A stretch of DNA of 64,000 bases from Meghimatium bilineatum (Eukaryota > Mollusca > Gastropoda > Stylommatophora > Philomycidae). Under the pieces are notes generated by a model, which was not told the origin of the DNA, did not search any database, and was given only the letters and a program-made list of their open reading frames with translations. Location: positions 12,659,392 through 12,723,391 of the forward strand of contig CM067315.1 in NCBI GenBank assembly GCA_034231615.1. The letters run 5' to 3'. The translations under genes and the position numbers were made by a program. Below, piece by piece: positions 2,399 through 43,374 of this stretch (within the stretch, counting starts at the first letter, position 1; the number at the start of each line of letters is the position of its first letter).

Positions 2399-2558
2399 TA
2401 CCAAAGACTACTTCTTAAGCTGTCAAGGTTTTTTCCAGAACGTAGTAATCTTTATGAATTTTCAAAACTTCTCACTATTCTGGGCAAGTTGATCTGCCAC
2501 AGGGAGGGACATCTATAAATACAACGAGACATCACTTATCCATCGTCGTCTTGGGAGG

Positions 2559-2564
2559 CCCTTA
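2559..2564. repeat. Left target-site duplication CCCTTA
   Basis: CCCTTA lies immediately before the first base of the left arm and is repeated exactly after the last base of the right arm. The flanking DNA beyond it differs (GGGAGG to the left, CCCCTGC to the right), so it is not part of the palindrome. Confidence 0.85.
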
Positions 2565-2595
2565 AGTAGTTATATACGCATGACTTGATGCGTAG

Positions 2596-2713
2596 TGCTC
2601 ACCAATGCTCACCATTAGATGGCTCAAAGAGGAAAGTATTGGTGAGCTGCTCACCATTGCTCACCATTGCTCACCATTGCTCACCATTTAGATGGTTCAA
2701 AGAAGAAAGTATT
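2596..2713 (+). repeat. Subterminal TGCTCACCAT repeats, left end
   Basis: The 10-bp word TGCTCACCAT or close variants occurs about six times within 100 bp of the left terminus. A 25-bp module beginning TTAGATGG and ending AAAGTATT occurs twice (2616-2640 and 2689-2713) with two mismatches. Between them GGTGAGCTGCTCACC forms a short palindrome. Such clusters next to the ends of DNA transposons commonly serve as recombinase-binding sites; that role is inferred. Confidence 0.7.
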
Positions 2714-2744
2714 GACACACCAACACACCAGATTGTCAGCCAGT

Positions 2745-2890
2745 AGGATGGGGCGGCGCGAGATACCCCACCCCGGCCCGATCGGGGGTCGCTCGGATCA
2801 CCCCCACCAACGGTGGGGGCGCGCGGATACCGGTTCTTCCGCTGAAAATTGTCCACTGTGCTATTTAGCTATGGACCGGTTCAAGAAATA
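2745..2890. other. GC-rich hairpin block, left
   Basis: A sharply GC-rich island in otherwise AT-rich DNA. It contains perfect small palindromes such as CCCCCACCAACGGTGGGGG and CCCGATCGGG, plus GCGGCGCGAG. A structural, packaging, replication or promoter role is possible. No convincing protein frame. Confidence 0.5.
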
Positions 2891-3018
2891 GCATTGGTAC
2901 TGCTATTATGTGTGAAGTATGTGTTAGAGAATTAAAATGTATGTGTGTATGGTGGGTGTCTGAAACCCCCCATTTTTCTCTGTGTTGGTGTGTTGAATAA
3001 AAAATAATTTTCCGCTGG

Positions 3019-3815
3019 TTTATCTCCCACCCTTTCCCCGCGTGTGTCGGTTCTTAACATGAAATGACTTTATATGTTTAGTGGTCATAAGGTTTTCCAC
3101 TGAAACTTTTCCAGTGTTTTTAGGTACAAGGTGATACATCAAGGTCAATATCAATGAAGTTTGTAACAATTTTTTAACCTGTGCTTCACCTTTAGACTGA
3201 TAATTCAAGATAAAGAAAATGATACATACATCAGCTGAACTTGTGTCGACCTCAACATTCTAATGCTTATCTCCCACACTTTCCCCTCGTGTGTCGGTTC
3301 TTAACACGAAATGACTTTATCTGTTTAGTGGTCATAAGGTTTTCCACTGAAACTTTTCCAGTGTTTTTAGGTACAAGGTGATACATCAAGGTCAATATCA
3401 GTGAACTTTGTAACAATTTTTTAACCTGTGATTCACCTTTAGACTGATAATCCAAGATAAAGAAAATGACACATACATCAGCTGAACTTGTGTCGACCTC
3501 AACATTCTAATTAAGAAACTTTTCCACACCAGAAATTTTGTCTCGTTCAGATTAGCGGACTATCGCACCCACATTTAAACCATGCGTTGTATTGGTTTAT
3601 TTATAAAACAGGCCAATTTTTGTAACCTGTGCTTCACCTTTAGACTGATAATCCAAGATAAAGAAAATGACACATACATCAGCTGACCTTGTGTCGACCT
3701 CAACATTCTAATTATGAAACTTTTCCACACCAGAAATTTTGTCTCGTTCAGATTAGTGGACTATCGCACCCACATTTAAACCATGCGTTGTATTGGTTTA
3801 TTTATCAAACAGGCG
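3019..3815. repeat. 247-bp and 198-bp direct repeats, left arm
   Basis: A 247-bp unit occurs at about 3019-3265 and again from 3266. Part of it, extended by new sequence, recurs with a 198-bp period up to about 3815. Each 247-bp unit has a 62-codon minus-strand frame (3020-3208, 3267-3455) starting at ATG; the two differ at six residues. I do not recognise the peptide and treat it as unproven. Confidence 0.7.
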
Positions 3816-4164
3816 TGTGTGGTGTCTAATGAATGGCCGTGAAATGGTATTTCCATATAAATTAAACCAAGAAACAAACAATTCAACACGTTCAACGAAA
3901 TATATGAAGAACCCGTTTAAATATATGCCTATGTAGCAAGCTTTATATAAATACACAGTGAAAATAAAACTAACATCTATTTAACTTTAGCTGGTAGCAT
4001 AACGCTGGACGAGGCCAGGTAAGCCAAACATCTGCAAACCATTAAAACCCTCTGTATCGCAATTTAGTCCGTGGTCAGTACACGGAAGCCCAGCGGGTGC
4101 CAATTAACCAGATAAGCACGCTCACACTGAAAGTGGGCGCGCGTTTCTTTAAAACGAACGTTAA

Positions 4165-4215
4165 GACTATTTTCTCTCTCTCGCTCTCTCTCTCTCTTTC
4201 TCTCTCTCTCTTTAC
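4165..4215 (+). repeat. CT microsatellite, left arm
   Basis: Imperfect (CT)n of about 45 bp with TTT interruptions. It is copied exactly in the other arm as (GA)n. Confidence 0.85.
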
Positions 4216-4256
4216 ATATGTGGCACTTTATAAGCAGAGAAAGTTTTCTGTTACTT

Positions 4257-4488
4257 ATACAGCTTTTTTTGTATTTAGAAACATATTTTTGTTAAAAAGC
4301 ATATTATTAGTAATATTATAGATTATTATTATATACAAATAATTATTCGTATAATCACGTGTATTTTGAGATACAGCTTTTTTGTATTTAGAAACATATT
4401 TTTGTTAAAAAACATATTATTAGTAATATTATAGATTATTATTATATACAAATAATTATTCGTATAATCACGTGTATTTTGAGATATT
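4257..4488. repeat. 114-bp tandem duplication, left arm
   Basis: Two adjacent copies of an AT-rich unit starting ATACAGCTTTTTTGTATT and ending GTATTTTGAGATA, nearly identical apart from GC/AC and one T. Confidence 0.8.
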
Positions 4489-4539
4489 TGAACCTAGGAA
4501 ACAAAATATTCTTCTTCTGCTGGTGTAATCAAAGGTTCT

Positions 4540-5240
4540 ACCCTTGTGTGGTTATATTCAAGTGGTTCTTACAATGTAAAAATAGAGGCGTGTTCCTGTG
4601 CTGTGATGACATAACCTAACAGCCTGCTGTCCTATGACCAACGATTCGTGTATAATTCATTAGGAGGCGCTAACCTCTCTATCAAGGGGTCTTACATACA
4701 CTTCTTTTTTGTGTGCTTATATTCAAGTGGTTCTCAAATTGTAAAATACTGACCATAACAATGCAAACCCCCGAGACATATAGACACCACAAAAACTAAT
4801 ATTCTGCAAACATACTTCTGTGCCTTTGACCAACGGTTCTCATTATTTCATACTTATATTCAAGTGGTTCTCAAATTGTAAAATCTTGCCCATGCAATGT
4901 AAAACCCCTGACATATAGACACAACAAAAGCTATATTCTCCAAACATTCTTCTGTGCCTTTGGCCAATGATTATCATTATTTTATGCTTATATTCAAGTG
5001 GTTATCACGTTGTAAAAACCTGACCATGAGAATGTAAAACTCGTAACATTGACACCAAAAGAAAATATTCTGCAAACATTATTCTGTGTCTGTGGCCAAT
5101 AGTTCGCATTATTTTATGGTTATGTTAAAGTGGTTCTCACACAGGCCAATCCTGACCATACAAATGTAAAACCCATGTCATATATACACCACAAAAGCTA
5201 ATATTCTCCAAACAGTCTTCTCTCAGGCCACGCTTCAGCC
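4540..5240. repeat. Degenerate ~135-bp repeat field, left arm
   Basis: Five or more diverged units containing CTTATATTCAAGTGGTTCTC, then TTGTAAAAT, CCATACAATGTAAAACCC and ATTCTCCAAAC. Spacing between homologous words is roughly 125-170 bp. No coding frame. Confidence 0.6.
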
Positions 5241-5459
5241 ATGGTCGCTTGATGGTCTCTGTATGCTCTTTAACTATGTTCTACCATATTATCATTATGG
5301 TCTCACTAACTTCTAACAGGGTCTACTTTGGGCCAATATATTCTTAGTATATTTTCGCTAGAGTCTTAAACTAGGTTCTCATGTGCAGCTTCAATTATGT
5401 TCTCTCTGTGTTTTGAGTTATTTTTCTCTACTAAAAGGTTTCTTATTAACATATTTCAT

Positions 5460-7720
5460 TAGCGCAAACGGCGTGTTTATCAGATGTCGAAATTAACAAG
5501 TCACACGAAAACACATTTCAGCACTTTCTCACTAACAACATAGTACATTTGAGAAGTTTTATTTGTGTAAACTTACCATTTATTGGTGTTTTTTCACAAC
5601 TAGATAAGCCACTTATACGGATTTTCGCTGTTTTATTAGTTGTCTAAATTGTCATACGAAAATACATTTCAGTATTTTTGCAGTAACATCATGACAAATT
5701 TTATCGTGTTTGTATTTGTGTGACTTTACAAGGTACCATTTTCCACAATTAACCAATCTGCTTTTAGTGATTTTCATTATGTTTTATCATTTGTCTAAAT
5801 TATCATACCACACGAAATATATTTCAGTACTTTTACACAAACATTATAACACATTTTTTTATTTGTGTAAGTACATCATTTACAATTTTTTCACAAGTAA
5901 CCAACCCACTTTTACTATGTTATCACACTAAAAGAACCCATTTTTCAGTACGTTGCCACTAAGAACATAACGCATTTTGCCATGTTTTTATTTGTGGGCC
6001 TGCGGCATTTATCAATTTTAGTGATGTTCGTTATGTTTTATCAGTAGTTATCTAAATTAGATACCATACAAACCCATATTTCAGTACTTTTGCACAAACA
6101 TCATAACACATTTACCATGTTTTATTTATTCGCTTTCAACAGTTATTACTATTTTTGCAATTACACAAGCCGAATTGGGTGATTTTCGTTATGTTTTATC
6201 ATTTGTCTAAATTATCATACCACACGAAACATATTTCAGTACTTTTACACAAACATTATAACACATTTTTTTTTATTTGTGTAAGTACATCATTTACAAT
6301 TTTTTCACAAGTAACCAACCCACTTTTACTATGTTATCACACTAAAAGAACCCATTTTTCAGTACGTTGCCACTAACAACATAACACATTTTGCCATGTT
6401 TTTATTTGTGACCTTCGGTATTTATCAATTTTAGTGATGTTCGTTATGTTTTATCAGTAGTTATCTAAATTAGATACCATACAAACCCATATTTCAGTAC
6501 TTTTGCACAAATACCATAACACATTTACCATGTTTTATTTATTCGCTTTCAACCGTTATTACTATTTTTTGCAATTACACAAGCCGAATTGGGTGATTTT
6601 CGTTATGTTTTATCACATGTCTAAGTTATGATACCATACGAAGCTATTTTTCAGTACGTTGCCATTAACAACATAACAACTTTTGACATGTTTTTATCTG
6701 TTGGATAATCACTTATCACTTTTTCACAACAAGGCAAGTTGGTGGTAGCTTTCAGTGTGATCAGACAGTATTTATCTCTTTTCAATACTTACAGTTGCGC
6801 ATTTCACGCCATTTAGATACAAAACACGGTTCCATTTTTGAATTTGTGTAAGTACATCATTTAATTATTTTTTTTTTCACAAGTAACCAACCCAATTTTA
6901 CTATGTTATCATACCAAAAGAAACCATTTTCAGTACGCTGCCACTAACAATATAACACATTTTAGCATGTTTTTATTTGTGGGCCTGCGGTATTTATCAA
7001 TTTTAGTGATGTTCGTTATGTTTTATCAGTATTTATCTAAATTAGATACCATACAAACCCATATTTCAGTATTTTTTGCACAAACATGATAACACATTTA
7101 CCGTGTTTTATTTGTGTGCTTTCAACAGTCATTACTATTTTTGCAATTACACAATCCGAATTGAGTGATTTTCGTTATGTTTTATCACATGTCTAAGTTA
7201 TGATACCATACAAAGCTATTTTTCAGTACGTTGCCATTAACAACATAACAAACACAACGCATTTATCACTTTTGACAGCTAGACATGCTGTTTTTCGTAG
7301 TTTTCACAATGAGTAAAGTCACTATTTCACCTGTCTCTAGACTTACAAGGACAAATTACAGTGGTTTTATGTACCAACATGTTTAATATTACATATATTC
7401 AAATGACAGAAGTCATGTTTTATCACTGTTCACAACTAGGCAAACAGCATTTAACAATTGTTGGTATTACCAAAAGCATTGCGTGGTGGTTCACTAGACT
7501 TACACTGCAAATTTTCCTATTTTTATGCACCAACCGGCTTCATATTGCATATTTCCAAACGACGAAGGTCATGTTTTATCACTTTTCACAGCTAGCTAAC
7601 CCGATTTAAACACTTTTCAATTGACAAACGACATGTTTTATTAGTTTTCTATATTATCAGGTTATATGAAACCACATTACAATACGTTTACACTAAAAAA
7701 CATAAGGCATTTAACCACTT
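5460..7720. repeat. Degenerate ~150-bp repeat field, left arm
   Basis: A long AT-rich tract of diverged units recognised by GTTATGTTTTATCA, GTCTAAATTATCATACCA, TTTCAGTACTTTTGCAC, AACATAACACATTT and TTTTTATTTGTG. Larger blocks of about 440 bp are themselves duplicated (5710-5990 against 6155-6420). Small open frames here are products of the repeat. Confidence 0.65.
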
Positions 7721-8175
7721 TTCACAATTAGGCAAACCGCGTTTCGCAAATACCTTGCAATAACCCGGGTGATATCACATGACATTAGCCAGGGCCGATA
7801 GCTCCTGTTGTTACCCATGACAATGACCTAGGACACTACACCCTGTTAATAGCTCATCCGGATATCACCATACTAACAAGCCATACTAATATAATATTCG
7901 TTATTAACACCAACACGACTAAAAAAAAAACCCTGATACAGGACTATCTGGCTAGGAACAACTGACACATTTCTTACAACTAAATACCGATACAATATAA
8001 GAGGCGTTGTTGTTGGTTATGGTTTGCGTATATTTCCCAGTTATAGACAAATATATACACCAAGCTAAACTCGACAATATATTTTTTTAAAAGACAAGCA
8101 CATATTAAAAAATACTGACAAATACAGAAAAGACATTCACAGAAAAATTTAACAACGCAGGTTGCCTCATAATGG
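7721..8175. other. Arm sequence without repeats or genes
   Basis: Unique-looking sequence between the repeat field and the zinc-finger gene, containing the A-run at 7921-7930 where the arms differ by one base. No gene seen. Its mirror is 10703-11158. Confidence 0.4.
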
Positions 8176-8181
8176 TTTATT
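8176..8181 (-). terminator. Poly(A) signal of left zinc-finger gene
   Basis: AATAAA on the minus strand, about 110 bp after the stop codon. Identical in the mirror gene. Confidence 0.55.
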
Positions 8182-8290
8182 GAATCATTTGAACGACATA
8201 CATAGCATAGTTAGAAAGGGGCATATGTTGGTGTCAGCATTTACTATCTATAAGAACAGCTTCAATTGGTTGTGTCGGTTGTCTAAACAC

Positions 8291-9166
8291 TCAACCCAAC
8301 GGATGGTCGTTTATAAAATATAAGTCGAAAGAAGTTCCCACAATGTTCTCCAGCTGATATTTGGTATTTGGCCGCGTATTCTGGGCAACATTCATAGGGT
8401 CAGCTTCGTTAACTTTCTGAACAAAGAGGTCAGAGTCGTGTCTATTATTTATCAGCGGTGGGTACTCTAAAACAGCTGAATTGTTAACTGAGCCGTGAAA
8501 AGTTCTTGCTTCTAATGTCTCTCGATGCCGTAATATCAAATGTTTGGAAAAGTTCACTTTGAACCGCTTAGTTTGGTCAGTGAACATGGGTCTTAGAACC
8601 TCATTCCAGTCTTGTATATGAGGTATCGTTGGGGGATGAAAAAACGTGTAAGTCGCGCTGGACTTACGAACTGTGATATGTGTATGTATAGTTGACCAAT
8701 TATCGATATATATTTGGTGTATGTCTAATGGTAAACCAGCTAAAAAATCGAAGTGGGGTGAGTTAGGTGCCCGTGGTGTTAGTGCTCTTATGGTGCCGTT
8801 ATTGTCTGGTAGTAGTGATTGTTGTGATAATGGAGGTACACTGTTTTCAGAGGTAGCAGACAGCGACAAGGGCGATGTAATTTCCAAAACTGCTGCTAAT
8901 GAAGAGCCAGTCATATGTGGGGGTGAAACTGATAACGTTAGTGGTGTAACTGGCGCGGATGCATGACCAACACGCCCGTTCATTTGTTCTTGGTGTTTCT
9001 TTACGTGCCGCTGTAAAGACGCAATATCAGAATAGTCACGCTTACAAACAGAACAGTTATATCGACGCTTAATGTGCAAATTCTGACAATGTCTACGCAG
9101 TGTATATACGCATTTAAACTCTTTCCCACAAGTTTTATAGGCGTCGGCTTTGCTACCCAGGGCGAC
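8291..9166 (-). CDS. C2H2 zinc-finger protein, left copy (terminal exon)
   Basis: Mirror twin of the gene at 9712-10587, 291 codons from the proposed splice acceptor, intact. Numbered from that point, the first finger has Cys13, His26 and His31 but Tyr10 where the first cysteine should be. The second finger is complete (Cys38, Cys41, His54, His58). A Ser/Thr/Pro-rich linker (about 65-135) leads to a C-terminal block of about 155 residues rich in aromatic residues, ending DHPLG. It differs from the right copy at Cys19 (Arg), Thr222 (Phe) and Ser245 (Phe). All four nucleotide differences I found in the frame are non-synonymous. Probably a DNA-binding protein of the element. The C-terminal block vaguely recalls proteins of large DNA transposons, but I cannot name the family. 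Confidence 0.7.
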   Translation of the reverse strand, partial: VALGSKADAYKTCGKEFKCVYTLRRHCQNLHIKRRYNCSVCKRDYSDIASLQRHVKKHQEQMNGRVGHASAPVTPLTLSVSPPHMTGSSLAAVLEITSPLSLSATSENSVPPLSQQSLLPDNNGTIRALTPRAPNSPHFDFLAGLPLDIHQIYIDNWSTIHTHITVRKSSATYTFFHPPTIPHIQDWNEVLRPMFTDQTKRFKVNFSKHLILRHRETLEARTFHGSVNNSAVLEYPPLINNRHDSDLFVQKVNEADPMNVAQNTRPNTKYQLENIVGTSFDLYFINDHPLG

Positions 9167-9184
9167 CTGGTGATGATAAAACAC

Positions 9185-9693
9185 AAAGATGTCAATAGGA
9201 CAAACACATATATTTTAGTCGATGTAACAACCAAACCATAATAAAAGCATCGTTTAATAACAGAATATACGCAATAATACACACTAATTATAACCACACA
9301 GAGCTAATACAGTGACAACCGGGCATGGTGGCTAGTTCACCACCAGTGAATCCAGTGAATTAGTTTTTTAACTAGTCATAAGCGAACTTTTATCACACCA
9401 AGCAAATTCAATCACTATAGCCACTAACACATACAAGGTGCCTAGTAATAAGAGGCGGGGCTGTGATTGAATTTGCTTGGTGTGATAAAAGTTCGCTTAT
9501 GACTAGTTAAAAAACTAATTCACTGGATTCACTGGTGGTGAACTAGCCACCATGCCCGGTTGTCACTGTATTAGCTCTGTGTGGTTATAATTAGTGTGTA
9601 TTATTGCGTATATTCTGTTATTAAACGATGCTTTTATTATGGTTTGGTTGTTACATCGACTAAAATATATGTGTTTGTCCTATTGACATCTTT
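9185..9693. promoter_or_regulatory. Shared central region between the divergent genes
   Basis: About 509 bp, itself an inverted repeat around the spacer, must contain both promoters. In each half an ATG with a strong Kozak context (GCCACCATGC; plus copy at 9552-9554, mirror at 9324-9326 minus) opens only 12 codons before a stop. A good-looking acceptor (GTTTTATCATCACCAG) lies at 9711 just before the finger frame. A short first exon joined by an intron of about 130 bp is therefore plausible, though the best in-phase donor (at 9579, GTGTGG) is weak. AT-rich stretches such as GGTTATAATTAG could serve as core promoters. Confidence 0.45.
9416..9462. other. 47-bp unique spacer at the palindrome centre
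   Basis: The only non-mirrored sequence in the element. It starts TATAGCCACTAACACATAC and ends AAGAGGCGGGGCT. The GGCGGGG box resembles a GC-box. Too short to hold a gene; it would be the loop if the arms paired. Confidence 0.8.
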
Positions 9694-9711
9694 GTGTTTT
9701 ATCATCACCAG

Positions 9712-10587
9712 GTCGCCCTGGGTAGCAAAGCCGACGCCTATAAAACTTGTGGGAAAGAGTTTAAACGCGTATATACACTGCGTAGACATTGTCAGAATTT
9801 GCACATTAAGCGTCGATATAACTGTTCTGTTTGTAAGCGTGACTATTCTGATATTGCGTCTTTACAGCGGCACGTAAAGAAACACCAAGAACAAATGAAC
9901 GGGCGTGTTGGTCATGCATCCGCGCCAGTTACACCACTAACGTTATCAGTTTCACCCCCACATATGACTGGCTCTTCATTAGCAGCAGTTTTGGAAATTA
10001 CATCGCCCTTGTCGCTGTCTGCTACCTCTGAAAACAGTGTACCTCCATTATCACAACAATCACTACTACCAGACAATAACGGCACCATAAGAGCACTAAC
10101 ACCACGGGCACCTAACTCACCCCACTTCGATTTTTTAGCTGGTTTACCATTAGACATACACCAAATATATATCGATAATTGGTCAACTATACATACACAT
10201 ATCACAGTTCGTAAGTCCAGCGCGACTTACACGTTTTTTCATCCCCCAACGATACCTCATATACAAGACTGGAATGAGGTTCTAAGACCCATGTTCACTG
10301 ACCAAACTAAGCGGTTCAAAGTGAACTTTTCCAAACATTTGATATTACGGCATCGAGAGACATTAGAAGCAAGATTTTTTCACGGCTCAGTTAACAATTC
10401 AGCTGTTTTAGAGTACCCACCGCTGATAAATAATAGACACGACTTTGACCTCTTTGTTCAGAAAGTTAACGAAGCTGACCCTATGAATGTTGCCCAGAAT
10501 ACGCGGCCAAATACCAAATATCAGCTGGAGAACATTGTGGGAACTTCTTTCGACTTATATTTTATAAACGACCATCCGTTGGGTTGA
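9712..10587 (+). CDS. C2H2 zinc-finger protein, right copy (terminal exon)
   Basis: The open frame runs from just after a TAA at 9661-9663 to TGA at 10585-10587, but no ATG precedes the fingers, so I start at the acceptor-like CAG at 9709-9711. An ATG at residue 62 would lose both fingers. Finger 1 (residues 10-31) has Tyr10 in place of the first cysteine. Finger 2 (residues 38-58) is a canonical C-x2-C-x12-H-x3-H. After a Ser/Thr/Pro linker comes a C-terminal block containing NFSKHLILRHRET, RPNTKYQLENIVG and FINDHPLG. Residues 19, 222 and 245 are Arg, Phe and Phe here. Divergently oriented to its twin around the central spacer. Likely a nuclear DNA-binding protein (inference from the fingers); partner and target unknown. 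Confidence 0.7.
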   Translation, partial: VALGSKADAYKTCGKEFKRVYTLRRHCQNLHIKRRYNCSVCKRDYSDIASLQRHVKKHQEQMNGRVGHASAPVTPLTLSVSPPHMTGSSLAAVLEITSPLSLSATSENSVPPLSQQSLLPDNNGTIRALTPRAPNSPHFDFLAGLPLDIHQIYIDNWSTIHTHITVRKSSATYTFFHPPTIPHIQDWNEVLRPMFTDQTKRFKVNFSKHLILRHRETLEARFFHGSVNNSAVLEYPPLINNRHDFDLFVQKVNEADPMNVAQNTRPNTKYQLENIVGTSFDLYFINDHPLG

Positions 10588-10696
10588 GTGTTTAGACAAC
10601 CGACACAACCAATTGAAGCTGTTCTTATAGATAGTAAATGCTGACACCAACATATGCCCCTTTCTAACTATGCTATGTATGTCGTTCAAATGATTC

Positions 10697-10702
10697 AATA
10701 AA
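10697..10702 (+). terminator. Poly(A) signal of right zinc-finger gene
   Basis: AATAAA 110 bp downstream of the stop codon, mirroring 8176-8181. Confidence 0.55.
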
Positions 10703-11158
10703 CCATTATGAGGCAACCTGCGTTGTTAAATTTTTCTGTGAATGTCTTTTCTGTATTTGTCAGTATTTTTTAATATGTGCTTGTCTTTTAAAAAAATATA
10801 TTGTCGAGTTTAGCTTGGTGTATATATTTGTCTATAACTGGGAAATATACGCAAACCATAACCAACAACAACGCCTCTTATATTGTATCGGTATTTAGTT
10901 GTAAGAAATGTGTCAGTTGTTCCTAGCCAGATAGTCCTGTATCAGGGTTTTTTTTTTTAGTCGTGTTGGTGTTAATAACGAATATTATATTAGTATGGCT
11001 TGTTAGTATGGTGATATCCGGATGAGCTATTAACAGGGTGTAGTGTCCTAGGTCATTGTCATGGGTAACAACAGGAGCTATCGGCCCTGGCTAATGTCAT
11101 GTGATATCACCCGGGTTATTGCAAGGTATTTGCGAAACGCGGTCTGCCTAATTGTGAA

Positions 11159-13419
11159 AAGTGGTTAAATGCCTTATGTTTTTTAGTGTAAACGTATTGT
11201 AATGTGGTTTCATATAACCTGATAATATAGAAAACTAATAAAACATGTCGTTTGTCAATTGAAAAGTGTTTAAATCGGGTTAGCTAGCTGTGAAAAGTGA
11301 TAAAACATGACCTTCGTCGTTTGGAAATATGCAATATGAAGCCGGTTGGTGCATAAAAATAGGAAAATTTGCAGTGTAAGTCTAGTGAACCACCACGCAA
11401 TGCTTTTGGTAATACCAACAATTGTTAAATGCTGTTTGCCTAGTTGTGAACAGTGATAAAACATGACTTCTGTCATTTGAATATATGTAATATTAAACAT
11501 GTTGGTACATAAAACCACTGTAATTTGTCCTTGTAAGTCTAGAGACAGGTGAAATAGTGACTTTACTCATTGTGAAAACTACGAAAAACAGCATGTCTAG
11601 CTGTCAAAAGTGATAAATGCGTTGTGTTTGTTATGTTGTTAATGGCAACGTACTGAAAAATAGCTTTGTATGGTATCATAACTTAGACATGTGATAAAAC
11701 ATAACGAAAATCACTCAATTCGGATTGTGTAATTGCAAAAATAGTAATGACTGTTGAAAGCACACAAATAAAACACGGTAAATGTGTTATCATGTTTGTG
11801 CAAAAAATACTGAAATATGGGTTTGTATGGTATCTAATTTAGATAAATACTGATAAAACATAACGAACATCACTAAAATTGATAAATACCGCAGGCCCAC
11901 AAATAAAAACATGCTAAAATGTGTTATATTGTTAGTGGCAGCGTACTGAAAATGGTTTCTTTTGGTATGATAACATAGTAAAATTGGGTTGGTTACTTGT
12001 GAAAAAAAAAATAATTAAATGATGTACTTACACAAATTCAAAAATGGAACCGTGTTTTGTATCTAAATGGCGTGAAATGCGCAACTGTAAGTATTGAAAA
12101 GAGATAAATACTGTCTGATCACACTGAAAGCTACCACCAACTTGCCTTGTTGTGAAAAAGTGATAAGTGATTATCCAACAGATAAAAACATGTCAAAAGT
12201 TGTTATGTTGTTAATGGCAACGTACTGAAAAATAGCTTCGTATGGTATCATAACTTAGACATGTGATAAAACATAACGAAAATCACCCAATTCGGCTTGT
12301 GTAATTGCAAAAAATAGTAATAACGGTTGAAAGCGAATAAATAAAACATGGTAAATGTGTTATGGTATTTGTGCAAAAGTACTGAAATATGGGTTTGTAT
12401 GGTATCTAATTTAGATAACTACTGATAAAACATAACGAACATCACTAAAATTGATAAATACCGAAGGTCACAAATAAAAACATGGCAAAATGTGTTATGT
12501 TGTTAGTGGCAACGTACTGAAAAATGGGTTCTTTTAGTGTGATAACATAGTAAAAGTGGGTTGGTTACTTGTGAAAAAATTGTAAATGATGTACTTACAC
12601 AAATAAAAAAAAATGTGTTATAATGTTTGTGTAAAAGTACTGAAATATGTTTCGTGTGGTATGATAATTTAGACAAATGATAAAACATAACGAAAATCAC
12701 CCAATTCGGCTTGTGTAATTGCAAAAATAGTAATAACTGTTGAAAGCGAATAAATAAAACATGGTAAATGTGTTATGATGTTTGTGCAAAAGTACTGAAA
12801 TATGGGTTTGTATGGTATCTAATTTAGATAACTACTGATAAAACATAACGAACATCACTAAAATTGATAAATGCCGCAGGCCCACAAATAAAAACATGGC
12901 AAAATGCGTTATGTTCTTAGTGGCAACGTACTGAAAAATGGGTTCTTTTAGTGTGATAACATAGTAAAAGTGGGTTGGTTACTTGTGAAAAAATTGTAAA
13001 TGATGTACTTACACAAATAAAAAAATGTGTTATAATGTTTGTGTAAAAGTACTGAAATATATTTCGTGTGGTATGATAATTTAGACAAATGATAAAACAT
13101 AATGAAAATCACTAAAAGCAGATTGGTTAATTGTGGAAAATGGTACCTTGTAAAGTCACACAAATACAAACACGATAAAATTTGTCATGATGTTACTGCA
13201 AAAATACTGAAATGTATTTTCGTATGACAATTTAGACAACTAATAAAACAGCGAAAATCCGTATAAGTGGCTTATCTAGTTGTGAAAAAACACCAATAAA
13301 TGGTAAGTTTACACAAATAAAACTTCTCAAATGTACTATGTTGTTAGTGAGAAAGTGCTGAAATGTGTTTTCGTGTGACTTGTTAATTTCGACATCTGAT
13401 AAACACGCCGTTTGCGCTA
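11159..13419. repeat. Degenerate ~150-bp repeat field, right arm
   Basis: Mirror of 5460-7720. Confidence 0.65.
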
Positions 13420-13638
13420 ATGAAATATGTTAATAAGAAACCTTTTAGTAGAGAAAAATAACTCAAAACACAGAGAGAACATAATTGAAGCTGCACATGA
13501 GAACCTAGTTTAAGACTCTAGCGAAAATATACTAAGAATATATTGGCCCAAAGTAGACCCTGTTAGAAGTTAGTGAGACCATAATGATAATATGGTAGAA
13601 CATAGTTAAAGAGCATACAGAGACCATCAAGCGACCAT

Positions 13639-14339
13639 GGCTGAAGCGTGGCCTGAGAGAAGACTGTTTGGAGAATATTAGCTTTTGTGGTGTATATATG
13701 ACATGGGTTTTACATTTGTATGGTCAGGATTGGCCTGTGTGAGAACCACTTTAACATAACCATAAAATAATGCGAACTATTGGCCACAGACACAGAATAA
13801 TGTTTGCAGAATATTTTCTTTTGGTGTCAATGTTACGAGTTTTACATTCTCATGGTCAGGTTTTTACAACGTGATAACCACTTGAATATAAGCATAAAAT
13901 AATGATAATCATTGGCCAAAGGCACAGAAGAATGTTTGGAGAATATAGCTTTTGTTGTGTCTATATGTCAGGGGTTTTACATTGCATGGGCAAGATTTTA
14001 CAATTTGAGAACCACTTGAATATAAGTATGAAATAATGAGAACCGTTGGTCAAAGGCACAGAAGTATGTTTGCAGAATATTAGTTTTTGTGGTGTCTATA
14101 TGTCTCGGGGGTTTGCATTGTTATGGTCAGTATTTTACAATTTGAGAACCACTTGAATATAAGCACACAAAAAAGAAGTGTATGTAAGACCCCTTGATAG
14201 AGAGGTTAGCGCCTCCTAATGAATTATACACGAATCGTTGGTCATAGGACAGCAGGCTGTTAGGTTATGTCATCACAGCACAGGAACACGCCTCTATTTT
14301 TACATTGTAAGAACCACTTGAATATAACCACACAAGGGT
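13639..14339. repeat. Degenerate ~135-bp repeat field, right arm
   Basis: Mirror of 4540-5240. Confidence 0.6.
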
Positions 14340-14390
14340 AGAACCTTTGATTACACCAGCAGAAGAAGAATATTTTGTTTCCTAGGTTCA

Positions 14391-14622
14391 AATATCTCAA
14401 AATACACGTGATTATACGAATAATTATTTGTATATAATAATAATCTATAATATTACTAATAATATGTTTTTTAACAAAAATATGTTTCTAAATACAAAAA
14501 AGCTGTATCTCAAAATACACGTGATTATACGAATAATTATTTGTATATAATAATAATCTATAATATTACTAATAATATGCTTTTTAACAAAAATATGTTT
14601 CTAAATACAAAAAAAGCTGTAT
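14391..14622. repeat. 114-bp tandem duplication, right arm
   Basis: Mirror of 4257-4488. Confidence 0.8.
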
Positions 14623-14663
14623 AAGTAACAGAAAACTTTCTCTGCTTATAAAGTGCCACATAT

Positions 14664-14714
14664 GTAAAGAGAGAGAGAGAAAGAGAGAGAGAGAGCGAGA
14701 GAGAGAAAATAGTC
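14664..14714. repeat. GA microsatellite, right arm
   Basis: Mirror of the CT tract at 4165-4215, with the same interruptions. That is notable because microsatellites normally diverge fast between copies. Confidence 0.85.
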
Positions 14715-15063
14715 TTAACGTTCGTTTTAAAGAAACGCGCGCCCACTTTCAGTGTGAGCGTGCTTATCTGGTTAATTGGCACCCGCTGGGCTTCCGTGTA
14801 CTGACCACGGACTAAATTGCGATACAGAGGGTTTTAATGGTTTGCAGATGTTTGGCTTACCTGGCCTCGTCCAGCGTTATGCTACCAGCTAAAGTTAAAT
14901 AGATGTTAGTTTTATTTTCACTGTGTATTTATATAAAGCTTGCTACATAGGCATATATTTAAACGGGTTCTTCATATATTTCGTTGAACGTGTTGAATTG
15001 TTTGTTTCTTGGTTTAATTTATATGGAAATACCATTTCACGGCCATTCATTAGACACCACACA

Positions 15064-15860
15064 CGCCTGTTTGATAAATAAACCAATACAACGCATGGTT
15101 TAAATGTGGGTGCGATAGTCCACTAATCTGAACGAGACAAAATTTCTGGTGTGGAAAAGTTTCATAATTAGAATGTTGAGGTCGACACAAGGTCAGCTGA
15201 TGTATGTGTCATTTTCTTTATCTTGGATTATCAGTCTAAAGGTGAAGCACAGGTTACAAAAATTGGCCTGTTTTATAAATAAACCAATACAACGCATGGT
15301 TTAAATGTGGGTGCGATAGTCCGCTAATCTGAACGAGACAAAATTTCTGGTGTGGAAAAGTTTCTTAATTAGAATGTTGAGGTCGACACAAGTTCAGCTG
15401 ATGTATGTGTCATTTTCTTTATCTTGGATTATCAGTCTAAAGGTGAATCACAGGTTAAAAAATTGTTACAAAGTTCACTGATATTGACCTTGATGTATCA
15501 CCTTGTACCTAAAAACACTGGAAAAGTTTCAGTGGAAAACCTTATGACCACTAAACAGATAAAGTCATTTCGTGTTAAGAACCGACACACGAGGGGAAAG
15601 TGTGGGAGATAAGCATTAGAATGTTGAGGTCGACACAAGTTCAGCTGATGTATGTATCATTTTCTTTATCTTGAATTATCAGTCTAAAGGTGAAGCACAG
15701 GTTAAAAAATTGTTACAAACTTCATTGATATTGACCTTGATGTATCACCTTGTACCTAAAAACACTGGAAAAGTTTCAGTGGAAAACCTTATGACCACTA
15801 AACATATAAAGTCATTTCATGTTAAGAACCGACACACGCGGGGAAAGGGTGGGAGATAAA
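15064..15860. repeat. 247-bp and 198-bp direct repeats, right arm
   Basis: Mirror of 3019-3815. The 62-codon frames appear here on the plus strand at 15424-15612 and 15671-15859. Confidence 0.7.
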
Positions 15861-15988
15861 CCAGCGGAAAATTATTTTTTATTCAACACACCAACACAGA
15901 GAAAAATGGGGGGTTTCAGACACCCACCATACACACATACATTTTAATTCTCTAACACATACTTCACACATAATAGCAGTACCAATGC

Positions 15989-16134
15989 TATTTCTTGAAC
16001 CGGTCCATAGCTAAATAGCACAGTGGACAATTTTCAGCGGAAGAACCGGTATCCGCGCGCCCCCACCGTTGGTGGGGGTGATCCGAGCGACCCCCGATCG
16101 GGCCGGGGTGGGGTATCTCGCGCCGCCCCATCCT
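15989..16134. other. GC-rich hairpin block, right
   Basis: Mirror of 2745-2890. Confidence 0.5.
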
Positions 16135-16165
16135 ACTGGCTGACAATCTGGTGTGTTGGTGTGTC

Positions 16166-16283
16166 AATACTTTCTTCTTTGAACCATCTAAATGGTGAGC
16201 AATGGTGAGCAATGGTGAGCAATGGTGAGCAGCTCACCAATACTTTCCTCTTTGAGCCATCTAATGGTGAGCATTGGTGAGCA
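16166..16283 (-). repeat. Subterminal ATGGTGAGCA repeats, right end
   Basis: Mirror of 2596-2713. Confidence 0.7.
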
Positions 16284-16314
16284 CTACGCATCAAGTCATG
16301 CGTATATAACTACT

Positions 16315-16320
16315 CCCTTA
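16315..16320. repeat. Right target-site duplication CCCTTA
   Basis: Follows the terminal ACTACT of the right arm without a gap and matches 2559-2564 exactly. Confidence 0.85.
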
Positions 16321-26349: not shown

Positions 26350-29095
26350 AAAGACTAAATTGTACCCTCTCAACACTGACTACATTCTGCAGTTTATGGA
26401 AACTAAATTGTGCCCTCTCAACACTGACTACATTCTGCAGTTTATGGAAACTAAATTGTACCCTCTCAACACTGACTACATTCTGCAGTTTATGGAAACT
26501 AAATTGTACCCTCTCAACACTGACTACATTCTGCAGTTTATGGAAACTAAATTGTGCCCTCTCAACACTGACTACATTCTGCAGTTTATGGAAACTAAAT
26601 TGTGCCCTCTCAACACTGACTACATTCTGCAGTTTATGGAAACTAAATTGTGCCCTCTCAACACTGACTACATTCTGCAGTTTATGGAAACTAAATTGTG
26701 CTCTGTCAACACTGACTACATTCTGCAGTTTATGGAAACTAAATTGTGCCCTCTCAACACTTATTACATTCTGCAGTTTATGGAAACTAAATTGTGCCCT
26801 CTCAACACTGACTACATTCTGCAGTTTATGGAAACTAAATTGTGCCCTCTCAACACTTATTACATTCTGCAGTTTATGGAAACTAAATTGTGCCCTCTCA
26901 ACACTGACTATATTCTGCAGTTTATGGAAACTAAATTGTGCCCTCTAAACACTGACTACATTCTGCAGTTTATGGAAACTAAATTGTGCCCTCTCAACAC
27001 TGACTACATTCTGCAGTTTATGGAAACTAAATTGTGCCCTCTAAACACTGACTACATTCTGCAGTTTATGGAAACTAAATTGTGCCCTCTCAACACTGAC
27101 TACATTCTGCAGTTTATGGAAACTCAATTGTGCTCTGTCAACACTGACTACATTCTGCAGTTTATGGAAACTCAATTGTGCCCTCTCAACACTTATTACA
27201 TTCTGCAGTTTATGGAAACTAAATTGTGCCCTCTCAACACTGACTACATTCTGCAGTTTATGGAAACTAAATTGTGCCCTCTAAACACTGACTACATTCT
27301 GCAGTTTATGGAAACTCAATTGTGCTCTGTCAACACTGACTACATTCTGCAGTTTATGAAAACTAAATTGTGCTCTGTCAACACTGACTACATTCTGCAG
27401 TTTATGGAAACTAAATTGTGCCCTCTCAACACTTATTACATTCTGCAGTTTATGGAAACTAAATTGTGCCCTCTCAACACTGACTACATTCTGCAGTTTA
27501 TGGAAACTAAATTGTGCTCTGTCAACACTGACTACATTCTGCAGTTTATGGAAACTAAATTGTGCCCTCTCAACACTTATTACATTCTGCAGTTTATGGA
27601 AACTAAATTGTGCCCTCTCAACACTGACTACATTCTGCAGTTTATGGAAACTCAATTGTGCTCTGTCAACACTGACTACATTCTGCAGTTTATGGAAACT
27701 AAATTGTGCCCTCTAAACACTGACTACATTCTGCAGTTTATGGAAACTAAATTGTGCCCTCTCAACACTTATTACATTCTGCAGTTTATGGAAACTCAAT
27801 TGTGCTCTGTCAACACTGACTACATTCTGCAGTTTATGGAAACTAAATTGTGCCCTCTAAACACTGACTACATTCTGCAGTTTATGGAAACTCAATTGTG
27901 CTCTGTCAACACTGACTATATTCTGCAGTTTATGGAAACTAAATTGTGCCCTCTAAACACTGACTACATTCTGCAGTTTATGGAAACTCAATTGTGCTCT
28001 GTCAACACTGACTACATTCTGCAGTTTATGGAAACTAAATTGTGCCCTCTCAACACTTATTACATTCTGCAGTTTATGGAAACTAAATTGTGCCCTCTCA
28101 ACACTGACTACATTTTGCAGTTTATGGAAACTAAATTGTGCTCTGTCAACACTGATTACATTCTGCAGTTTATGGAAACTAAATTGTGCCCTCTCAACAC
28201 TTATTACATTCTGCAGTTTATGGAAACTAAATTGTGCCCTCTCAACACTGACTATATTCTGCAGTTTATGGAAATTAAATTGTGCCCTCTAAACACTGAC
28301 TACATTCTGCAGTTTATGGAAACTAAATTGTGCCCTCTCAACACTGACTACATTCTGCAGTTTATGGAAACTAAATTGTGCCCTCTCAACACTGACTACA
28401 TTCTGCAGTTTATGGAAACTCAATTGTGCCCTCTCAACACTGACTACATTCTGCAGTTTATGGAAACTCAATTGTGCCCTCTCAACACTGACTACATTCT
28501 GCAGTTTATGGAAACTCAATTGTGCCCTCTCAACACTGACTACATTCTGCAGTTTATGGAAACTAAATTGTGCTCTGTCAACACTGACTACATTCTGCAG
28601 TTTATGGAAACTCAATTGTGCCCTCTCAACACTGACTACATTCTGCAGTTTATGGAAACTAAATTGTGCTCTGTCAACACTGACTACATTCTGCAGTTTA
28701 TGGAAACTCAATTGTGCCCTCTCAACACTGACTACATTCTGCAGTTTATGGAAACTCAATTGTGCTCTGTCAACACTGACTACATTCTGCAGTTTATGGA
28801 AACTCAATTGTGCCCTCTCAACACTGACTACATTCTGCAGTTTATGGAAACTCAATTGTGCCCTCTCAACACTGACTACATTCTGCAGTTTATGGAAACT
28901 CAATTGTGCCCTCTCAACACTGACTACATTCTGCAGTTTATGGAAACTCAATTGTGCCCTCTCAACACTGACTACATTCTGCAGTTTATGGAAACTCAAT
29001 TGTGCCCTCTCAACACTGACTACATTCTGCAGTTTATGGAAACTCAATTGTGCTCTGTCAACACTGACTACATTCTGCAGTTTATAGAAACTAAA
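26350..29095 (+). repeat. 48-bp minisatellite (~57 copies)
   Basis: The unit contains TTCTGCAGTTTATGGAAACT, AAATTGTGCCCTCTCAACAC and TGACTACA. Variants: CTCTGTC for CCCTCTC, CAATTG for AAATTG, TTATTAC for TGACTAC, CTAAAC for CTCAAC, arranged in recurring patterns. The 48-bp period keeps a 922-codon plus-strand frame open (METKLCPLNTDYILQF repeated). The minus strand is also open over long parts (28289-29047), and the frame differs from that of the flanking RT. The word TTATGGAAACTAAATTGTG aligns with TTATGGGCAAATAGATGGTG of the LINE at 53 kb. Confidence 0.9.
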
Positions 29096-31721: not shown

Positions 31722-31821
31722 NNNNNNNNNNNNNNNNNNNNNNNNNNNNNNNNNNNNNNNNNNNNNNNNNNNNNNNNNNNNNNNNNNNNNNNNNNNNNNN
31801 NNNNNNNNNNNNNNNNNNNNN
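31722..31821. other. Assembly gap of 100 N
   Basis: Exactly 100 ambiguous bases, the usual placeholder for a gap of unknown length, at the edge of a LINE end and a 31-bp array. Confidence 0.99.
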
Positions 31822-34850: not shown

Positions 34851-35189
34851 TGAGACAATTGTTATTTTTCCAAATTAAATTTATCCTTGACATTACAGCT
34901 AAAGCCATCTCCAGAATTATCTCTAATTCTGATACAACAAGAGTGGCGCGTCGAGAGATCAAACAAACATAATTATAGCTACGGGAAATTATTTTCGACA
35001 CAATGCGGAAGCTATTGCGATCAATTAAGCTAAATTTTGCAGAATTCAAATAACGACAGTAGAGCTTAATTATGGAGCATCAAGAGGCGCAATATGAACT
35101 TTCAAACATGTCTTCTGCGTTCGTTCTCACACTTCCGAACATTATCAGGATGACCCGAGAACAGTAATGTAGTCAAAGACTGATACTCT
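34851..35189. other. No recognisable gene
   Basis: Contains at most a short SINE-like scrap near 35110 (TCTTCTGCGTTCGTTCTCA). Confidence 0.35.
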
Positions 35190-35262
35190 CCCGTTAAGGA
35201 GTTGCAGTGAGGGATTTTGCGACTGTGTCATAAATGCCGCATGCTCTAGCTGTCGCCACGTC

Positions 35263-36122
35263 ATGAAAGGGGAGCGGTTGTTGTCTGGCGCAAGGACCTC
35301 TATCTCGCAGATGCTTCAAGCGCAGCTATCTAATCCCATGTTCTACAGGGCCAACACGTGCAAGAAAGACCCGATTTTTGCCCATAACGACACAGTCTCT
35401 ACCACCATCAACGGTTTAATAGCTGACAACCTTCTGTCCACTTCGGCCGCCACTCTATGCCTCAATGGCAGACCCATTGTCTCTGCGTGTTCTTGCCCTA
35501 CTGAACACATCTCAGACTTTCTGGATAGTGTCTTCCAACCATTAGTGGAGCAACTTCCTACATTCCTGAAAGATACTAACCATGCCCTGTCCATCTTTGC
35601 TTCTATTTCTTTGTCCCCTGCCCTTATGTATCGTCTCTTTCTGCTGGACGTCTGTTTTCTTTACACCTCCTTACCGCACTCAGAGGGTCTCAAGGCTGTG
35701 AAGTTCTTCCTCGACCAGCATCCTCACCCCTCTGTGTCTACTTCTACCCTCATCCGCCTTGCTGAACTCATGCTTACTCTCAATTCCTTCGACTTTGATG
35801 GGCACTTTTTGGACCAAAACAGTGGGGTCGCCATGGGCACCAAGATAGGGCCCAGCTATGCCTGTTTGTTTATGGGTCACTTTGAGCATCAGGTATGGGG
35901 ATCCTATGGGGGGCCCTTTTCATCGGTGTTCCATAGGTATGTCTGAGGCTGTTCACTGTGTTCACTGACATGTCTGAGGCTGACCTGGCACGCTTCATAC
36001 AATTCATAGACAATTTTCATCCGGCCATCAAGTTCACATCTGAGATCATCACTTCCCATGTGAACTTTCTTGACATATCTATCACTATTCAACCCCTCTG
36101 TCTTAGCACATCAGTACACTAC
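35263..36122 (+). pseudogene. Penelope reverse transcriptase domain, 5' part
   Basis: RT copying RNA into DNA for a Penelope-like element. From residue 1 at 35263: GRPIVSACSCPTEHISDFLD (69-88) belongs to the RT fingers, LDVCFLYTSLPH (128-139) is motif A with its catalytic Asp, and SGVAMGTKIGPSYACLFMGH (187-206) is motif B. The frame ends at HRYV followed by TGA (35944-35946), exactly where the catalytic Y-x-D-D should stand, so both aspartates are lost. After a shift, MSEADLARFIQFIDNFHPAI and VNFLDISITI continue (from 35958) to the LINE insertion at the sequence VHYKPTD. No initiator is certain; the frame may begin upstream. Confidence 0.8.
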
Positions 36123-36135
36123 AAACCGACTGATG
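36123..36135. repeat. 13-bp target duplication, left
   Basis: AAACCGACTGATG, repeated exactly at 36901-36913 on the far side of the inserted LINE. Confidence 0.85.
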
Positions 36136-36900
36136 GTTGGTTGGTTGGTTGCTGATCCAGCGGTCCATGGGCTCATGCCCTTTGACCCAATGCCATTGTG
36201 TGATATATGCATGTGTTTGTGAGTTGTTGTTTTGTTCCATATAATGTGTTCCATTTATCTGGCCCCGGAGGGAGAAGCATTTTCCTGATGTCATCCAGTG
36301 CTGGACATTGAAAAAGGTGGTGGTCAACAGTTTCATATGGATGAGTGCACAGCCGGCACCCTGGAGTGTGTTGTGGTTGTATTCTGTTCAGGTGATTGTT
36401 AAGCTGTACATGTTGTGTGCGCAGTCGGAATATGATACTCTGGTCTTTTCTTTCCAGGAGGTTGATATTGTCTTTAGGATTTGGGCTGGTCATATATTTA
36501 TAGATTTCCCTCCCAGTGTTTCCCATGGCCCATCTGTTCATCCAATTTTCTTTGTTCACAGATTTCAGAATCATTTTAACTGTGTGCATTGCTGTTTCTG
36601 TATAAGGCTGTTCTTGTTGTGCTCCCCTATTTGCTAGTCTGTCTGCCTTATCATTACCAGGTGTGTTTGAGTGGCCAGGAATCCACTGCGTAACAATGTT
36701 GACATCATAAGATGTGAGCAGCTGGTTTGCATGGTGGTATATTTCAGCTAGCTCGGGTTTACAATGTCCATCACATTCCAATGCTTGGAGCGCAGACATA
36801 GAGTCTGTAAAAATAACAATGTTTTGGACTTTTGATGGGAAGGCATCAAATATGGTCTTCAGGTGGTACAAGGCAATTTCTAGTGCTGTTATTTCAGCTT
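36136..36900 (-). mobile_element. 5'-truncated LINE with (AACC)n 3' end
   Basis: A minus-strand non-LTR retrotransposon copy kept only from the RNase H domain to the 3' end. Its 3' terminus is (AACC)n, seen as GGTTGGTTGGTTGG on the plus strand. It is bracketed by the 13-bp duplication, so the insertion boundaries are exact. It interrupts the Penelope RT coding sequence. Confidence 0.85.
36173..36871 (-). pseudogene. LINE RNase H and C-terminal zinc knuckle, intact frame
   Basis: 232 codons without a stop. IFTDSMSALQAL (20-31) carries the RNase H catalytic Asp and WIPGHSNTPGNDKADRLANR (63-82) the His/Asp block. GCRLCTHPYETVDHHLFQCP (171-190) is a CCHC knuckle. The frame continues upstream through AEITALEIAL, with its catalytic Glu, to the truncation point at 36900. 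It lacks endonuclease and RT through 5' truncation at insertion, so it is dead on arrival. Open frame and exact duplications suggest a younger insertion than its host. Confidence 0.8.
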
Positions 36901-36913
36901 AAACCGACTGATG
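36901..36913. repeat. 13-bp target duplication, right
   Basis: AAACCGACTGATG, partner of 36123-36135. Confidence 0.85.
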
Positions 36914-37790
36914 ATCATAGCTTTCTTCTATACACCTCTTTTCATTCCTCTGCCTGTCGTGATTCATTTCCATTCTCCCAACTTCGTCGTCTTCAGCGCC
37001 TGTGCAGTTACAAGGATGACTTCATCGAGAAGGCCTACGAGATGGTAGCTTTCTTCCGCTGTCGCCTGTACCCTGAGGCTGTCCTCAGGTCTGCCCTTCT
37101 TCGACTATGCAGTGTCTCCCGTCAGGACACCCTCTCGACCACTCAGAAGTCTTCCTCGTCTAACCGGACTAAGCTGGTTCTCACTTTCCACCCCTAAAGC
37201 GATGCCGTTCGCCATGCCCTGCTTCGTCACCTTCCCCTTCTCCAGTCTGACCCCAAGACGCGGGAAGTGTTTTGTAATCCCCCTCTTGTTGCTTACAGAC
37301 GTGACAAGAACCTCAGGGATCTACTGGTCCCGAGTCACCTCCAGCCTGACGTTCCTAATCAGTTTGGCACCATCAGATGCAAAGGCTACACTTGTGCCTA
37401 TGCAAACGCAGCAAATGCTACACTTGTGCCTATGTCACCCAGAACCGGTCTGTCATATTCCCTAAAGCCACCTTCACCATTGAGGAGAGCTTCACAAGTG
37501 TGTCCCGCAACGTCATCTATGCCATCGTATGCAAGCGTTGCTCCATGGCATATATAGGTGAAACTGGAAGGAGGCTCGCAGACCGATTCTGGGAACATCT
37601 GTACAGCATAAAAAACCATTCGGGCTTGCCTGTTGACGTCCATTTTAATGCCACCGGGGCACCCAGGACATTCAGGTTAGGGCCATTAAATCGTGTTTCT
37701 CTGACGACCGGGCCCTTGAGAACCGCTACATTTATCAATATGGCACTCTTAAATCCGACGGAATTAATGAGCGCCTGTCTCATGTATGAT
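36914..37790 (+). pseudogene. Penelope RT 3' part and GIY-YIG endonuclease
   Basis: Resumes the host element as HSFLLYTSFHSSACRDSFPF and LCSYKDDFIEKAYEMVAFF. A TAA at 37195-37197 and frame changes follow. VIYAIVCKRCSMAYIGETGR then RLADRFWEH (about 37512-37598) is the GIY-YIG nuclease core with its CxxC linker and the YIGET signature of Penelope elements. A 40-bp stretch at about 37377-37440 (GCTACACTTGTGCCTATG twice) is a small internal duplication. Several frames are needed to follow it, so it is inactive. Confidence 0.8.
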
Positions 37791-37959
37791 TTCAGTCGAT
37801 CCATAGTTTGTTTGTTTCGTGTCACATGTTTGTTGTTATTTTTGTATTTTCCTTGTCCGGTGTCATTTCGCCTCTTCCGGTAAATCCATACTACTCATAC
37901 CAATGTGACCGTCGATGTTATTACTGTTCGCTTTCTGTTATATGTTTTAATTTTGTTTC

Positions 37960-41999: not shown

Positions 42000-42800
42000 C
42001 ATCATCAGGTGCCATGCTGGGTGGCGTAGGCGGTCAAGGCTCTCCACAGCTCTCTGTCCACAGTATTATGTATCAAAGTCGTTGTTGTTTCTTTGCTGTG
42101 CCAGGTTGTCAAACTGTCTAATATTTTCTCACGTTGTCGCCCTCTGTCTCTGGTGCCTTCAATCTTGCCTGTTGTGATTATGTTCTCTAAACCTGCCTGT
42201 CTCATGAAGTGGCCAAAAAAAGAAGATTGCCTTTTTCTTAATATATTGTTGATTAAGGTCCGTTTCGCATTTAACTCTTAACACCTCTACATTAGTTTTT
42301 CTGGCAGTCCATGGTATTCTCAGCATTCTTCTGTAGAACCGCATCTCTGTTGCCTCCAATCTCCCACTTTCCAGTTTGTTTATTGTCCAAGACTCGCACC
42401 CATATGTTAGTATAGGGGTTATATAGCACTGAAGAACTCTCTTTCTCACCTCTAATGACAAGGTCATATTACACAGTATATTTTTCATTTTTCTGAATGT
42501 TGTTTTTGCCTGTCCTATTCTGCATCTTATTTCTGTTGAACTTCTTCCATCTGCTGTAATAATTGTACCTAGATATTTGAATTGGTGGACCTGTTTTAAT
42601 ACTATATCATTCACTATGATATTGCAAGGTGTGTTATTTTCTTTCTTTGAAATAACCATTACTTCTGTTTTCTTGATATTTAGGAAGAGGCCTTTCTCTT
42701 TGCTTTCTGTGACTACTACTTTAATTAAGTTTTGAAGGTCTTCCTCACTTTTTGCAATCAGAACAGTGTCATCCGCATATCTCAAATTATTTAACTTGTT
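42000..42800 (-). pseudogene. 5'-truncated LINE: RT from YADD to the 3' end
   Basis: Minus-strand frame 42785-42159 reads LRYADDTVLIAKSEEDLQNL (motif C), FLNIKKTEVMVISKK, FKYLGTIITADGRSSTEIRC and YGCESWTINKLESGRLEATE. An indel in an A/T run at about 42218 shifts the frame, and MRQAGLENIITTGKIEGTRD continues to a stop at 42005. RT palm and thumb are present, but the fingers and endonuclease are gone through 5' truncation at about 42800. A homologous 3' end lies at 63145-63322. Confidence 0.8.
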
Positions 42801-43374
42801 TTTAACAAATTAACTTGTTTTTAACACATTAACTTGTTTTTAACAAATTTTTTAAACAAATTATTTCTCTGTTCTCAACTTGTTGAAATCAGCAATAGGC
42901 GCCATCGTACACTGTCTGATCAAATATATGTTATCAACACTTGTTCATCCCGCACCATACACTGCATGCATTGCAATATAACTTTCCTGTCACGAATCGG
43001 ACATCTACGACCTCACAAACCAAATTAGACAATCACAAATGTATGTGTTGTTTTTCTACTTGCTCATCAAATTTATTGTTTTTCATGCCATGATCTTCTT
43101 CTCTTGCGAAGGAGAAACATCATCCTGCACCATCAATGACATGAAGCAATCATGCTATCTTTTTCACTGCTTAGGAATGATTTGTTTCAGCTTGACTGAG
43201 ATAGCTGTAAATTGTATATTGTGAGCTTTGGGTCAGTTTCTATCTGTTTATTGTCTTTCCTGTGCATTTCCTGTTAAGCGTCGCAGGATTGAATGATAAT
43301 TGGTTTTCTGGCTATCTCATATTTAGTCCCTTCATGTGCACTAATATTCTAACGCCCTAACACGAAGATAACTT
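42801..43374. other. No gene recognised
   Basis: A 22-bp TTAACTTGTTTTTAACA repeat (42786-42850), a 40-bp stretch shared with 41943-41985 on the other side of the LINE, and a 61-codon frame at 43039 of no known family. Confidence 0.4.

Follow-up and report, generated by a model that had tools for sequence, protein, structure and literature searches.

Vertebrate Mavericks, also known as Polintons, most commonly end in the motif 5'-(AGT)2//(ACT)2-3', and the intact copies described in one survey are 12,723-24,620 bp long and flanked by 6-bp target duplications (PMC8097293). Their terminal inverted repeats measure 46-1,447 bp (mean 402 bp), and the core is flanked by accessory regions with diverse open reading frames (ORFs) (PMC8097293). 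The survey relates the repeats at the ends to a jumping-back step during protein-primed replication, a step that it presents as expected but not shown as of 2021; by the same account, no Maverick virus particle had been seen by that date (PMC8097293). Here, we describe a near-perfect palindrome of 13,750 bp (13.75 kb) with ends of this type in the gastropod Meghimatium bilineatum. The palindrome lies in a stretch of 64,000 nucleotides (assembly GCA_034231615.1, contig CM067315.1, positions 12,659,392 to 12,723,391 of the forward strand), which is referred to below as the window and whose own numbering is used throughout. It has two arms, a 47-bp centre, (AGT)2/(ACT)2 ends, and a flanking direct repeat, and no Maverick core gene was recognised in the ORFs scanned. 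On balance, it is probably a copy-back product derived from one end of a linear, Maverick-like element with protein-primed replication and was inserted by a predicted helper integrase.

Adenovirus and the yeast linear killer plasmid give rise to palindromic defective genomes, which are mirror molecules of protein-primed systems that carry one end twice. Unlike the gastropod palindrome, these molecules are extrachromosomal and have neither an integrase nor a target duplication. Neither a paper on such genomes nor a palindromic Maverick was recognised among the literature matches listed, which for Mavericks were mostly non-subscription papers. The layout of the palindrome is also seen in another linear DNA virus, adeno-associated virus (AAV), whose snapback genomes are described as one viral end and its mirror, either symmetric or with a single-stranded loop, and whose snapback dimers carry their genes head to head (PMC8235507). 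However, AAV is a parvovirus and replicates through hairpins rather than by protein priming. In addition, virions were the source of the snapback genomes sequenced in that study (PMC8235507), which were not integrated copies flanked by a target duplication.

Comparison of the window against itself by BLASTN yielded one inverted match, 2565-16314 against 16314-2565, and alignment of its two halves gave the arms listed in Table 1. The arms differ at six alignment columns. Five are substitutions, at left-arm positions 7735, 8433, 8502, 8503, and 9112, and the sixth is a homopolymer indel, the left arm being one A short in the A-run at 7920. A first-pass annotation, made from the letters of the sequence, had proposed these arms, their coordinates, and their near-perfect mirror, all of which are borne out. 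It had also proposed that the palindrome is a single integrated unit and had pointed to flanks that continue the mirror symmetry as one observation that would speak against insertion. The symmetry extends for zero bases beyond either end, and the host sequences on the two sides differ from each other.

The palindrome edges, the terminal motif, and the target duplication line up to the exact base, and the 6-bp CCCTTA is the longest direct repeat immediately flanking the element. Because the edges were set without regard to the motif or the duplication, this triple coincidence strongly supports the insertion, in one event, of a linear molecule whose ends are of Maverick type, in agreement with the integrated unit proposed earlier. 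AGTAGT...ACTACT pairs with matching 6-bp flanks, counted within the window at spacings of 300 bp to 40 kb, occur once, and that pair is the present element. Among 60 first-order Markov sequences of window length, the mean was 0.017 such pairs, and one of the 60 contained any. For the two remaining end motifs published for Mavericks, the window contains no pair whose flanks match. Allowing up to three mismatches, the terminal 15-mer is found in the window at the two ends and in one chance-level match at 62725, and the terminal and subterminal DNA patterns had 0 matches each in viral contigs. A short hairpin, TACGCAT...ATGCGTA, lies at 2575-2594, ten bases inside the terminus, and is mirrored at the other end; it may be an end-recognition site.

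The first-pass annotation had likened the palindrome to no described mobile element. This part of it is not supported, as AGTAGT...ACTACT with a 6-bp duplication is the end signature published for vertebrate Mavericks. These ends are best read as belonging to a mirror-image form derived from a Maverick-like element rather than to an unrelated new class. The palindrome shares with Mavericks the (AGT)2//(ACT)2 ends, the 6-bp duplication, and a length within the published range of intact copies. It has inverted repeats as well, but these are 6.85 kb long. However, it differs from them in having no distinct middle and no recognised core gene. Core genes were sought and not found in the ORFs scanned, and the repeat length is outside the published range; thus, the element is not filed as a Maverick but is called a Maverick-ended, non-autonomous element that would work like a copy-back defective genome. 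Some adintoviruses, which are animal relatives of Mavericks, are described as carrying genes like zinc-finger transcription regulators (PMC11071296). The zinc-finger gene in the palindrome fits kinship with them without proving it, whereas no polymerase, hexon, or integrase gene was recognised in the palindrome and no sequence relative beyond the zinc fingers was found.

Table 1. Positions of the palindrome, its ends, and the features of its arms in the window.
Feature	Position	Strand	Remarks
Left target-site duplication CCCTTA	2559..2564	+	6 bp; without mirror symmetry
Left arm of palindrome	2565..9415	+	6,851 bp; self-BLASTN and half-against-half alignment
Terminal motif AGTAGT, (AGT)2	2565..2570	+	matches published Maverick end motif
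Subterminal repeats of about 10 bp, TGCTCACCAT	2596..2688	+	mirrored in right arm
Tandem duplications of 247, 201, 113, 132, and 414 bp	3020..6657	+	no ORF of at least 100 amino acids; mirrored in right arm
C2H2 zinc-finger ORF, left arm	8291..9214	-	307 codons, stop to stop; 5' end faces centre
Asymmetric centre (loop)	9416..9462		47 bp
Right arm, mirror of left	9463..16314	-	6,852 bp; self-BLASTN and half-against-half alignment
C2H2 zinc-finger ORF, right arm	9664..10587	+	3 codons differ from left copy; AATAAA at 10697
Terminal motif ACTACT, (ACT)2	16309..16314	+	matches published Maverick end motif
Right target-site duplication CCCTTA	16315..16320	+	6 bp

Each arm contains three ORFs of at least 100 amino acids, which overlap at one place: the 307-codon zinc-finger frame and two frames across it. 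No ORF that long is present in the outer 5.7 kb of either arm, where there are several tandem duplications. Since the 5' end of the zinc-finger gene is toward the centre, its two copies point outward. In the right arm, AATAAA occurs 110 bp past the zinc-finger stop, and an ATG at 9552 lies upstream of the ORF in a context that we take to be good for a start; a small intron between this ATG and the ORF is possible. The two copies differ in three codons, which result from the substitutions at 8433, at the adjacent 8502/8503, and at 9112. All three changed codons alter the residue, so the copies give no sign of selection after the separation of the arms.

Among the candidates compared, the zinc-finger protein has no relative that extends beyond its fingers. 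In Pfam, both zinc-finger ORFs score under the curated cut-offs. Against zinc-finger proteins in the PDB, expect (E) values go down to 1.8e-8; there are 111 matches at E<=10, and the 60 of these that are listed fall within approximately the first 90 residues. Of 1407 candidate relatives, one is related at E<=0.001 (45% identity over 18%, in the zinc fingers). None of 35 candidates is related to residues 150-306 at E<=1, and none of four stretches in viral contigs was confirmed. Structure prediction without an alignment was uninformative (mean predicted local distance difference test score, pLDDT, 31.5; predicted template modelling score, pTM, 0.18). The Pfam scan covered both zinc-finger ORFs and 10 of the 57 ORFs of at least 45 amino acids in 2400-9500. 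These ten gave five weak matches below the cut-offs, in four ORFs (E 0.067-0.5), which are unrelated to Mavericks. The arm has no similarity to the rest of the window (blastn and tblastx, E<=1e-3), and the window contains no Rfam family at the gathering score and no tRNA.

The palindrome presents one terminus and its mirror around a short asymmetric centre, as a copy-back molecule does. Such a molecule would have arisen during strand-displacement copying of the parent element from its ends, when a growing 3' end left its template and primed on a displaced strand, either of the same molecule or of a sister. The switched 3' end would then have copied 6.85 kb back to the starting terminus. The product would carry the same terminus twice, with a short unpaired centre, and each arm would correspond to the parent's terminal repeat plus one accessory region, including the zinc-finger gene. 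With a replication origin at both ends, this molecule could have been completed and copied by a predicted helper polymerase. A predicted helper integrase would then recognise the identical ends and insert one linear piece, leaving the 6-bp duplication. Inverted joins of this type have a precedent: they are reported to have made up more than 85% of the 475 chimeras that phi29 polymerase formed during random-primed strand displacement (PMC1855051), and the polymerase belongs to the protein-primed group (PMC6921018). The phi29 study favours priming on nearby displaced strands (PMC1855051).

Several observations weigh against a copy-back origin from a Maverick-like element. According to the same phi29 study, neither hairpin self-priming nor simple template switching is a major route (PMC1855051), so that, among the ways of copying back, a strict snapback is not the one with the best support. 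At the ends of the 47-bp loop, a 4-bp complement, AGCC/GGCT, is offset by 3 nt, and this microhomology is weak, being equalled by 366 of 5000 shuffled loops (7%). The differences between the arms are confined to the inner 1.7 kb (7735-9415), whereas the outer 5.17 kb (2565-7734) is identical. Counting 8502/8503 as one, there are five difference events (one indel and four substitution events), and the chance that all five fall that far inward is approximately 0.0009, a value calculated post hoc. Copy-back alone does not predict this clustering, which could be explained by gene conversion from the ends or by reads left unanchored in mid-assembly. The inverted repeats, at 6.85 kb, are 4.7 times as long as the published Maverick maximum of 1,447 bp. 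The end signature was described for vertebrate Mavericks, and the host here is a gastropod. AGTAGT also occurs inside the left arm at 6043, 6456, and 8811, mirrored in the right, so that the motif alone is not rare here. Polymerase, integrase, capsid, and other Maverick core genes were not recognised in the 12 ORFs scanned against Pfam, and among the candidates compared no relative was found that ties the zinc-finger protein to Mavericks.

The main rival is repair after integration, which we judge unlikely. A normal Maverick-like insertion would later have suffered a break in one half, which was fixed by copying the other arm; copying would have begun at the shared terminal repeat and replaced the middle and the far half by a mirror copy. 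This explains the Maverick ends and the target duplication equally well, and host repair alone suffices for it. The zero differences in the outer 5.17 kb also fit gene conversion between the arms. However, repair would require some 6.4 kb of copying beyond a terminal repeat of the published mean length of 402 bp, and the joining must fall so near the template's own end that 47 bp stay unpaired. Moreover, no trace of the lost middle was recognised in the palindrome. An error of assembly at the centre, in which the true middle of a real Maverick-like insertion was lost or the sequence of its first arm was repeated in mirror image in place of the second, is quite improbable. False palindromes do arise from missed-adapter reads. 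A run of 100 N at 31722-31821, probably a scaffold gap, indicates that the assembly was probably scaffolded, and the arm differences lie innermost, farthest from the unique flanks, where short reads are unanchorable. Yet an artefact is unlikely to stop at the terminal motif or to create two different flanks with a 6-bp duplication, and a unique 47-bp centre connects the arms.

Other readings dispense with a Maverick parent. The palindrome might be a fold-back-type, non-autonomous element from a different superfamily of DNA transposons, with inverted repeats that fill the element and a transposase acting in trans, which is improbable. In its favour, no Maverick core gene was found in the ORFs scanned, and IS3EU and Dada transposons, each with a transposase and end motifs of its own, also give 6-bp (6-7 bp) duplications. 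Most of each arm lacks recognised genes, and the arms contain internal tandem duplications, as do the repeats of fold-back elements; FB and TU, like the palindrome, have very long inverted repeats with internal repeats. However, fold-back elements (FB, TU, and Galileo) usually possess a distinct middle and other ends, whereas the palindrome has a 47-bp centre and a Maverick-type end motif. Galileo is likewise described with very long inverted repeats containing internal repeats (PMC3573991). The other end set checked, that of Ginger transposons, is published as 4-bp duplications with TGTNR ends, and the palindrome differs from Ginger1 and Ginger2 in its 6-bp duplication and AGTAG ends. Mirror-image arms alone would also permit the head-to-head insertion of two elements or a segmental inverted duplication of host DNA, both of which are exceedingly improbable. 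The window offers no further motif pair whose 6-bp flanks match, and no terminal motif lies within 600 bp of the centre, the internal AGTAGT/ACTACT copies all being more than 600 bp from it; two adjacent insertions are thus rejected. A segmental inversion, which the first-pass annotation had already dismissed, is likewise rejected because the mirror ends at the terminal motif and the 6-bp duplication.

Elsewhere, the window contains many further mid-length tandem arrays and several ORFs. A 27-bp tandem repeat of 27 copies occupies 1-736; its unit is divisible by three, and the minus strand is open over 54-764. At 26354-29095, a 48-bp repeat is present in 57 copies with 95% matches. A 41-bp repeat at 47973-48648 has 16.5 copies with 99% matches, so this array is perhaps recent. 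The ORFs at 53374-56997 (-), 42162-42809 (-), 63409-63999 (-), and 35173-37880 (+) look by eye like pieces of long interspersed nuclear element (LINE) reverse transcriptase, RNase H, and Penelope-type elements.

A copy-back origin from a Maverick-like element would bear on how such elements replicate and persist. At 13,750 bp, the molecule is within the published range of intact Mavericks, so it is of a size that could be packaged, as predicted from that range. A further, doubtful extension is that mirror-image Mavericks are mobile parasites of Mavericks, a lineage of defective satellites that relies on a helper for copying, packaging, and insertion and that persists in an animal genome. Such a lineage would have an origin and integrase sites at both ends, a packageable length, and two head-to-head copies of a zinc-finger regulator. 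The presence of a 13.7-kb near-perfect palindrome in a chromosome bears in itself on the survival of such structures. If the copy-back origin is true, this chromosomal product would physically record strand-displacement replication that took place outside the chromosome, and integration would require just two ends in cis. Maverick replication would then be testable from assemblies alone, by counting mirror copies and reading their centres. Defective genomes, which are known from virus stocks, would thereby be extended to integrated animal elements.

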